Origin: an uncultured Clostridia bacterium
GTDB lineage: Bacteria; Bacillota; Clostridia; Oscillospirales; Oscillospiraceae
Direction of reading: 5' to 3'
Length of the DNA: 51,573 nucleotides
NCBI GenBank assembly: GCA_947165595.1
Contig: CAMVAV010000009.1
Span: forward strand, 1 to 51,573
Part shown: piece after piece, positions 17,412 to 19,578 of the stretch
Layout: every line of letters begins with the position of its first letter
How positions within the stretch are numbered: the first letter of the stretch is position 1
Notes under the pieces: generated by a model
Database searches by the model: none
What the model saw: only the letters and a program-made list of their open reading frames with translations
What the model was told of the DNA's origin: nothing
Program-made: the position numbers and the translations under genes

Positions 17412-17440
17412 TTGCATTTCCGTCTCTTATCCGATATGCT
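17412..17440 (+). promoter_or_regulatory. Sigma-A promoter for the structured leader
   Basis: TTGCAT (17412-17417), 17-base spacer, TATGCT (17435-17440). The expected start of transcription is about 17446-17447, which is exactly the first base of RNA unit 1. Confidence 0.6.
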
Positions 17441-17446
17441 GAGAAT

Positions 17447-17563
17447 GCCGCACAGGCGGTTCCTTTTCTTCGACTGTTAATCGAATTTTACCGCCCGCGG
17501 CTTTTCGGCGCACAGGCGCTTCCTTTCTATCTGGTCGCCTTGACTGATTTTAGCGCCCGCGCC
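17447..17563 (+). ncRNA. Tandem structured RNA motif (two units)
   Basis: Unit 1 is 17447-17501, unit 2 is 17507-17563, joined by TTTTC. Each unit has a 5-bp outer helix, an ACA/C internal loop, a 5-bp middle helix, an asymmetric loop with TTCCTTT on the 5' side and TTTA on the 3' side, and a variable apical hairpin. Unit 1 helices are GCCGC/GCGGC and GGCGG/CCGCC; unit 2 helices are GGCGC/GCGCC for both. Where a base differs between units its partner differs too, while the loops stay the same. That is the signature of a selected RNA fold. The location, in the 203-base leader of the 642-residue protein gene, suggests a tandem riboswitch or a protein-binding leader. I do not recognise it as a named class. 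Confidence 0.7.
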
Positions 17564-17577
17564 GGCCTGTGTGATCC

Positions 17578-17618
17578 GGGCTGTGAAGGAATGAGCTTCT
17601 CTCGTTTTTTCACAGCCC
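17578..17618 (+). promoter_or_regulatory. Leader hairpin upstream of the ribosome-binding site
   Basis: GGGCTGTGAA (17578-17587) pairs with TTCACAGCCC (17609-17618) around a 21-base loop. No T tract follows, so it is not a simple terminator; it lies 14 bases before AAAGGAGG (17633-17640). GCCTGTG at 17565-17571, just before it, is complementary to CACAGGC in both RNA units. This allows an alternative fold, so the region may be the expression platform of the leader. Confidence 0.5.
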
Positions 17619-17649
17619 GTTGATTTGCGCGCAAAGGAGGGATAATCGC

Positions 17650-19578
17650 GTGAAAAGCTACGATAGTGCCGCCCTGCTCCGGCTCTTTCGGATGGTCCCC
17701 CATCCGTTCGCCGTTCCCGCCGTCCGGTCGGTCCTCGACTGTCTGGACCGCGGCTTCGCCGTCGTGCGGGACGGGCGGCCCATTCCCGTGCCGGGCTATG
17801 TTTTCACCGCCTGCGCCGAGGTCTATGGGATCGACGGGACAAAGCTCAACCAGACGTTTCACAAATCCTTTCAGACCGTTGCGGAGCTGCCGCCGGAGGA
17901 GTACTACGCGCAGCAGATCGCGCACTATCTGACCACCTACGGCGCGGAGGCGCTCGGCGTCAGGATGCCTGCCTACATCCCCGCCGAGGCGCTCAAGGTC
18001 CCGGACGGCCCGATCCCTTTTGAAAAGCTGAACGTCATCCGCGCGGCGGACGAGGAGGACATTCGCGCCGCGATCGACGGCTATGCCCTGCGGACCGTCT
18101 CGCCGGGCGAGAAGCAGCTCGCGCTCTTTCAGCCGCTGCTGCCCTTCGTGCGCGTCGAGACGGAGCGCATCGCCTGCTTCGAGCTGCAATGCCGCAAGCA
18201 CGCGCTCGACGGGACGGTGCCGGAGCATCCCGTCTCCCTGCTGCGCTATCTCGTCTATGAGACGACGGGCGAAACGCTGCTGATCAAAAGCGACGACCTC
18301 ATCAGGAAGATCGCCGGCGCGGCGCACGACGCGGACAAGGTCCGCGCGGCGAGCGTCATTCTCTGCCACGCGGACCCCGTGCGGCTTTCGAGCATCTTTT
18401 TGCGCTACAAGCCCATCTTTCTCGCCTTCCGGACGTTCGACGACTGCAGGCCCGTCGTCAACCGGCTGCGCCGGCTGGCGGTCAGGCACCACAGGCCCCT
18501 TTCCTCGGAAACGCTGCAAAACGCGGTCAATCTCGCGCTCTCGGGGGATCGAAGGGCGTTCCTCCGTCTGGCGGAGGCCGCGAGCAACCGCGAGCTTGTC
18601 AAGCTCTGCAACGCCGTCTCGGTCAGGCAGCGCGCCGCGGAGCCGACGCCGGGGGTCTACGCCGTCCGCAACGGCAAGACCTGGGTGCGGGAGGACGCCG
18701 TCCGCGCCCGGTCGTCGCTCTCGGTGGAGGAATGCCTGACGCTCGCCTGGATGCGGGAGGAGCTGCTTCGGATGCTCGCCGGGCGTCTCTCGCGGCTCAA
18801 GGGCCGGGTGTTCCACATTCCCGCCTACGCGGACTACGCCGCGCCGCACACCGAGCGGCAGCTGGTCGGCGCCTTCCCCTACGGCACGCGGATCAAAACG
18901 CCGGAGAATACGGCGTTCACCGCCGGCATCCACTGGTTCAATCAGAAGGGGACGCGGGTGGACCTGGACCTGCATCTCAATTCCACGGGCGGGCATTTTG
19001 GATGGAACGGCGCCTATAAAAGCATCGACACCCCCATTATTTTCACGGGCGATATGACGGACGCGCCGGAGCCGGACGGCGCGGCGGAGGCGTACTATTT
19101 CGACCCGGCCAACGACGTCTTCACGCTCTCGGTGAATCGCTTCTCGGGACCGGAGGACACCGCGTTCCGCTTCTTTCTCACCCATGACGTTCCGAAGACC
19201 GGCACGGATTCCGAGGAGAAACAGCACTATACCTTTGATCCGAGCCGGGCGGTCTTCGCGCCGATCCCGCTGACGCTCGCGGGCGAGCGGGAGGCCAATC
19301 TGGGCGTCTTTCTGGACGGCGCGTTCGTCTTCTACGGCGGCAGGCTCGGCGACGCAAGAATTCCGACCGCGGAATACGGCCCGTTCCTGCGGGGCGTGGC
19401 GCATTTGCTGCGCAGCCGCCTGATGCTGCGCGAGCTGCTCGCCGCCGCAGGGGCGACGGTGGTGGACGATCCGGAGCACCTGCCCGACGGCGTCGCGGCG
19501 GAGGACGTCACGGACCTGACGCCAGAGGCGCTCACGCCGGAGACGCTGCTGCGTCTCATCGACGGCGAGGAAGACTGA
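17650..19578 (+). CDS. Unknown 642-residue protein, possible TerD-like C-terminal domain
   Basis: Start GTG 17650 has AAAGGAGG 9 bases upstream; an upstream frame extension to 17620 lacks such a site. The protein is soluble, with no signal peptide or membrane helix. The N-terminal about 400 residues are mostly helical (LLRLFRMVPHP, LNQTFHKSFQTV, QQIAHYLTTYG, RLSSIFLRYKPIFLAF). The C-terminal about 180 look like a beta-sandwich with TRVDLDLHLN and IFTGDMTDAPEPDGAAEAYY. The DLDL...GD.T.AP.P.GA.E pattern recalls the TerD-related C-terminal region of MXAN_6230/SCO0854-type proteins, and the N-terminal HYLTTYG pattern fits the same group. This link is from memory and needs a profile search. Expression is under a structured RNA leader, which is unusual for a protein of unknown function. 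Confidence 0.75.
   Translation: MKSYDSAALLRLFRMVPHPFAVPAVRSVLDCLDRGFAVVRDGRPIPVPGYVFTACAEVYGIDGTKLNQTFHKSFQTVAELPPEEYYAQQIAHYLTTYGAEALGVRMPAYIPAEALKVPDGPIPFEKLNVIRAADEEDIRAAIDGYALRTVSPGEKQLALFQPLLPFVRVETERIACFELQCRKHALDGTVPEHPVSLLRYLVYETTGETLLIKSDDLIRKIAGAAHDADKVRAASVILCHADPVRLSSIFLRYKPIFLAFRTFDDCRPVVNRLRRLAVRHHRPLSSETLQNAVNLALSGDRRAFLRLAEAASNRELVKLCNAVSVRQRAAEPTPGVYAVRNGKTWVREDAVRARSSLSVEECLTLAWMREELLRMLAGRLSRLKGRVFHIPAYADYAAPHTERQLVGAFPYGTRIKTPENTAFTAGIHWFNQKGTRVDLDLHLNSTGGHFGWNGAYKSIDTPIIFTGDMTDAPEPDGAAEAYYFDPANDVFTLSVNRFSGPEDTAFRFFLTHDVPKTGTDSEEKQHYTFDPSRAVFAPIPLTLAGEREANLGVFLDGAFVFYGGRLGDARIPTAEYGPFLRGVAHLLRSRLMLRELLAAAGATVVDDPEHLPDGVAAEDVTDLTPEALTPETLLRLIDGEED

Follow-up and report, generated by a model that had tools for sequence, protein, structure and literature searches.

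A tandem small-RNA array and its TerD-domain partner protein at a Clostridia locus and in large phages

The array and its surroundings in the analyzed genome

We analyzed a window of 51,573 nucleotides, contig CAMVAV010000009.1 of an uncultured Clostridia bacterium (GCA_947165595.1). An array of two RNA units is located there between cinA and an open reading frame of 642 codons. The Pfam domains encoded nearby (thiI, cinA, jag, dnaA, dnaN, recF, gyrB, gyrA) represent an ordinary chromosome; the RNA-protein locus is carried by the bacterial chromosome, with dnaA a few kb away. The features of the locus are as follows.

17412..17440, plus strand: candidate promoter TTGCAT-17-TATGCT, read in the sequence; weak
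17447..17501, plus strand: RNA unit 1, 55 nt; fold z -3.6; covariance model R1 52.7 bits, E 5.5e-11 (self-match)
17507..17563, plus strand: RNA unit 2, 57 nt; z -3.0 for 17502-17563; R1 49.5 bits, E 4e-10 (self-match)
17577..17619, plus strand: 19-pair hairpin separating the array from the gene; classed as terminator-like, with a poor T tail (TTGATTTG)
17650..19578, plus strand: partner protein of 642 aa, starting at GTG; in no Pfam family; homologous proteins occur in phages and in two congeneric genomes
18892..19398, plus strand: TerD-like domain, residues ~415-583

The R1 scores are self-matches because both window units are among the 26 from which the model was built. The units have one fold in common, composed of a stem P1 (5 bp), an ANA/C loop, a stem P2 (6 bp), and UUCCU opposite UA. 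In unit 1, P1 (GCCGC/GCGGC) is followed by an ACA/C internal loop, P2 (GGCGGU/ACCGCC), a next internal loop with UCCUUU on one side and UUU on the other, and a variable apical hairpin. Unit 2 has P1 GGCGC/GCGCC, ACA/C and P2 GGCGCU/AGCGCC, the same loop motifs, and a different apical hairpin; both apices are plain hairpins. The folding energy of unit 1 is -21.1 kcal/mol, with none of 200 shuffles as good, and that of 17502-17563 is -22.9 kcal/mol, with one of 200 as good; the entire array at 17447-17563 reaches z -4.0 (0/200 shuffles). The minus strand of the array folds nearly equally well (z -3.8, 0/200), so that folding alone cannot assign the strand of the units. Their orientation is taken from relatives, where all of the 171 units lie on the strand of the partner gene.

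A search of Rfam 15 across the window gave no family at gathering score. Between 17380 and 17660, the matches at E<=10 were mir-2 and snoR35 alone, both far under gathering and outside the two units. The initial annotation had described two adjacent units of 55 and 57 nt with one fold, compensatory P1 and P2 changes between them, common loops, and no recognized class, ahead of a 642-residue protein. The coordinates and folding agree with this description, the paired changes and loops are present in the sequence, the Rfam check gave no relevant family over the units, and the reading frame runs from a GTG at 17650, preceded by AAAGGAGG, to 19578. The promoter proposed at 17412-17440 fared less well: the hexamers are there, but they score 7/12 by hand count and were left unreported by a consensus scan with a threshold of 9/12. 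In the hairpin at 17577-17619, the T-run sits within the 3' arm.

The partner protein is laid out as a helical N-terminal part (residues ~1-410) followed by the C-terminal domain, which is assigned the TerD fold. The single structure model has pLDDT 75.4 and pTM 0.53, and its helical part is poorly modelled, with pLDDT below 50 for residues 63-125 and hardly any coverage of this part in the match list. The window protein matches none of the Pfam families at E<=1. Homologues of the protein are rare in bacteria: they were found in three of 149 related genomes, the window's own included and all of the same genus, and in one of 398 sampled genomes of the phylum, again the window's own. They are also present in phage Phass-1, in cyanophages S-CRM01 and S-CBWM1, and at nine IMG/VR loci. 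Sequence homology of the protein to Ro60/TROVE was tested and is unsupported (hhalign probability 0.3% and 0.9%). TROVE was not among the 25 of 29 Pfam families listed for 50 partner-protein homologues, and PF05731 had no match in the window's own genome.

Conservation of the fold and its link to the protein

In the 26 units collected by hand, pairing is seen in 97.9% of 284 cells and two-sided changes occur in 9 of 11 pairs, a count that leans toward structure since most of these units came from a descriptor that demands pairing. For 140 distinct units in an alignment fitted to the model, 97.1% of 1540 cells are paired, with two-sided changes in 10 of 11 pairs; when the partners are shifted by one to three columns, pairing falls to 37-53%. 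We also searched near protein-first loci with the 5' half of the unit alone. A paired 3' half, defined as at least four of five P2 pairs and at least three of five P1 pairs plus the UA and C anchors, was found at 29 of 30 sites (one of the 29, in L048, sits at the threshold and may be due to chance). This compares with 38% when helices were swapped between sites, a high null because the units have composition and anchors in common.

Starting from the protein, we found an RNA unit adjoining the homologues in the two congeneric genomes, in Phass-1, S-CRM01 and S-CBWM1, and at most, though not all, of the IMG/VR loci. Unit copies number three by the homologous gene in genome G005 and four in G013. 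The phage records contain nine model matches for Phass-1, four for S-CRM01 (one at E 0.09), and two for S-CBWM1. Altogether, 13 of 14 protein-first records, the window genome included, match the model at E<=0.1 (15 of 16 before removal of G157 and G158, which the RNA itself had found); several of these records supplied units to the covariance model. The record without a match is G155, and weak ones are G151 (best E 0.001) and G156 (best E 0.02). Of the nine protein-first IMG/VR loci, four are strong (E<=1e-5), three from one phage type are weak (E 0.003), one is marginal (E 0.06), and one has no unit. Genome-wide, all model matches fall at the partner gene, with two in G000, three in G005 and four in G013 (150 of 264 to 372 first-look candidates scored per genome).

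In the opposite direction, two strict paired patterns retrieved 57 and 35 IMG/VR stretches, corresponding to 85 distinct RNA-first loci, a few of which share a contig. The R1 search covered 79 of these; the rest are L107 and L118, scored with the protein-first loci, and L215, L226, L240 and L252, contigs already present as L040, L047, L045 and L039, respectively. The partner protein is encoded within the fetched stretch at 65 of the 85 loci and elsewhere on the contig at seven of the other 20, for a total of 72. At the remaining 13 it was not found on the contig (12 contigs of 6 to 90 kb and one of 291 kb), and each of these loci has a model match at E<=1e-4. The 291-kb contig argues against a strict one-to-one link between RNA and protein. 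As a control, 120 loci were taken with a loose pattern that does not demand pairing. Five of them encode the protein within the fetched stretch, and each of these five also has a unit: four pass the strict unit test, and the fifth (L130) matches the paired pattern and the model (47.7 bits). The other 115 control loci have neither unit nor protein.

Placement was counted at 72 genes pooled from protein-first and RNA-first loci and deduplicated on the initial 300 bases of the matched gene stretch, which may leave truncated duplicates in the set. With one to seven units per locus, 151 units are upstream of the partner gene and 20 downstream, and 130 of the upstream units fall no more than 500 nt from the start of the gene. 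Some or all units are downstream in ten of the 72 loci, including both congeneric genomes and Phass-1, and five loci have downstream units only.

The initial annotation would have been contradicted by a lack of the same helices near related genes; they are found there, and the proposed tie to the downstream protein is supported by co-occurrence in both search directions. At the level of sequence, it is shown that the basal stem P1-ANA/C-P2-UUCCU/UA is kept in each unit, together with one protein family and on the same strand. RNA and protein are almost certainly a conserved pair, and this pair is largely phage-borne. The link, strand and placement counts make it hardly a pure leader or riboswitch.

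Apical modules and tRNA context

The commonest unit length is 50-59 nt, accounting for 122 of 214 descriptor hits at 95 loci, numbers that include overlapping or duplicate stretches (L045/L240, L047/L226, L039/L252, L040/L215, L275/L281) and some hits spanning two units; hits with a second core were skipped in apex sorting. By regular expression, T-loop and D-loop motifs occur together in ten of the 214 hits, none of them in the window's units, and the T-loop motif alone in four further hits. Four of the ten tRNA-like apices have the normal order, and six have the T-arm before the D-arm, that is, they are circularly permuted. ARAGORN calls all four normal-order apices tRNA or tRNA-like, and three of them have non-standard anticodon loops according to ARAGORN or folding. 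The locus coordinates of these modules are given below.

L211 3605-3720; L212 4427-4543; L280 2719-2838: tRNA-like, non-standard anticodon loop, enclosed by the basal stem
L228 2421-2538; L232 1637-1758 and 1312-1433; L243 5459-5580 and 5306-5442; L253 6836-6962: circularly permuted tRNA-like modules in phage units

Inspection of L253 and L228 by eye suggests that a short loop caps the acceptor and that the halves of the anticodon stem adjoin the basal stem, an arrangement that the minimum-energy folds show incompletely.

Some units sit between phage tRNA genes. The partner gene lies inside a tRNA cluster in S-CRM01, S-CBWM1 and Phass-1, and in G013 it is preceded by five tRNA genes, two of them immediately before it. 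ARAGORN reports a tRNA in the fetched stretch at 38 of the 95 unit-bearing loci and none at 57; the tRNA link is therefore common, not universal.

Comparison with known systems and possible function

The units resemble the YrlA type of Y RNA in that the 5' and 3' ends form a basal stem, the apex is modular, and the RNA gene adjoins the protein gene; the tRNA-like apices of 10 of the 214 descriptor hits, six with the T-arm first, are a partial likeness. The tRNA-like domain of YrlA, to judge from its published description, is probably itself permuted. According to PMC8394870, YrlA measures 90-150 nt; Rsr is held by a large stem that joins the two ends, and PNPase by a tRNA-like domain comprising D, T and acceptor arms. 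Unlike YrlA, the units have a different basal-stem motif without an Rfam match, are mostly ~50-60 nt long, and form tandem arrays. Ro60 carries a vWA domain, and a DxSGSM stretch in A6 is consistent with it; the partner protein differs from Rsr/Ro60 in lacking a TROVE match and in having a TerD-like domain in place of the vWA domain. It also differs from TerD-domain proteins in its long helical N-terminal extension and in its pairing with an RNA. A TROVE gene has been described in Borg elements (PMC11208441), and RNAs of cyanophage S-CREM1 were annotated with tRNAscan-SE and Rfam (PMC9964418). Our literature search took in little of the subscription literature and so weighs little; it gave no description of the RNA or of its tie to the protein.

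Co-occurrence, strand and the downstream placements make it likely that RNA and protein form a physical ribonucleoprotein (RNP). We lean toward the view that the noncoding RNA array and its protein partner work like the Ro60-Y RNA particle, a preference that rests on the modular apices and on the plan of stem plus module. Only tentatively do we suggest an undescribed RNP class, common in large phages and often located by many tRNA genes, in which a TerD-fused putative RNA-binding protein is combined with a tandem small-RNA array whose apex is swappable and sometimes mimics tRNA in circularly permuted form; with RNA and protein both outside known families, the principle of the Ro60-Y RNA particle would have arisen here a second time, independently. 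In the preferred Ro60-Y RNA-like reading, the array would be transcribed, the helical N-terminal part of the protein would bind the basal stem of each unit, and the variable apex would hold a second partner or client. Given the tRNA-like apex of some units, the RNA would link the TerD protein with machinery that handles tRNA (a nuclease, or a factor of processing or translation), in the way that YrlA connects Rsr/Ro60 with PNPase. The RNP would be spread mainly by phages, managing, protecting or mimicking tRNA during infection, and the copy on the bacterial chromosome would be a captured version.

The initial annotation instead suggested a riboswitch or an autoregulatory RNA. A riboswitch or a purely autoregulatory leader is unsupported, given that 10 of 72 loci have downstream units, that some units are placed among tRNA genes and that some apices are tRNA-like; a trans-acting RNA partner fits better, although units of the downstream-only loci may lead another gene. 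Autoregulation may act alongside such a role, since most upstream units are close to the gene. A leader whose units, lying upstream of the gene, are bound by the encoded protein to control its translation or the downstream hairpin would account for the prevalence of upstream units (151 of 171, 130 of them close to the gene start) and for the 19-pair hairpin that separates the two in the window. As the sole explanation we nevertheless regard it as unlikely in view of the 20 downstream units, the five downstream-only loci, and the units that lie between tRNA genes or have tRNA-like apices. The same apices, with their non-standard anticodon loops, and the tRNA-cluster context would suit a decoy function, whereby the units act as bait for host anticodon nucleases or further defences directed at tRNA, with the protein displaying or stabilizing them; a competitive-inhibitor role has been suggested for YrlA (PMC7790460). 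Both tRNA motifs, however, are present in only 10 of 214 descriptor hits, and we consider a decoy quite unlikely.

As tandem structured units with variable inner segments, placed before or after a single gene and mostly in phages, the arrays also resemble those of TIGR-Tas as described in PMC12045711, and the variable apical parts could by analogy with stem-loop TIGR-Tas be guides. Such an RNA-guided system is very improbable here: the basal stem of the units is conserved and covarying, nothing in the arrays points to spacers, the variable segment takes the form of a hairpin or a tRNA-like module, the window protein matches no Pfam family at E<=1, and a sequence search found neither a Nop domain nor a nuclease among the families listed for 50 homologues. 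With type III toxin-antitoxin systems such as ToxIN, the locus shares tandem RNA repeats ahead of a gene, in this case with a terminator-like hairpin between. That the repeats neutralize a toxic protein is hardly credible, however, for a protein of 642 aa that has a TerD-like domain and falls in none of the Pfam toxin families, since unit fold, protein size and domains all differ from ToxIN and some arrays are downstream only.

The RNA family is absent from Rfam, covaries strongly, is linked to the gene in both search directions, and is present in the isolated phages S-CRM01 and S-CBWM1. If the Ro60-Y RNA-like reading is true, the little-understood TerD domain gains an RNA partner and the Ro60-Y RNA particle a phage counterpart. 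A testable role is thereby offered for an element retained by some phages within large tRNA clusters, and the covariance model and protein profile ease the annotation of more phages.

A search of six relative loci against Rfam gave 84 matches, consisting of tRNA and one tmRNA. The tmRNA match (77.9 bits) is at 13647-14085 of L041, from Phass-1, just after the array, where the feature table is blank. Several tRNA matches near units are ~110-115 nt long (L248 2247-2361 and 2004-2115, L246 14622-14736, L211 8852-8962) and may contain inserts.
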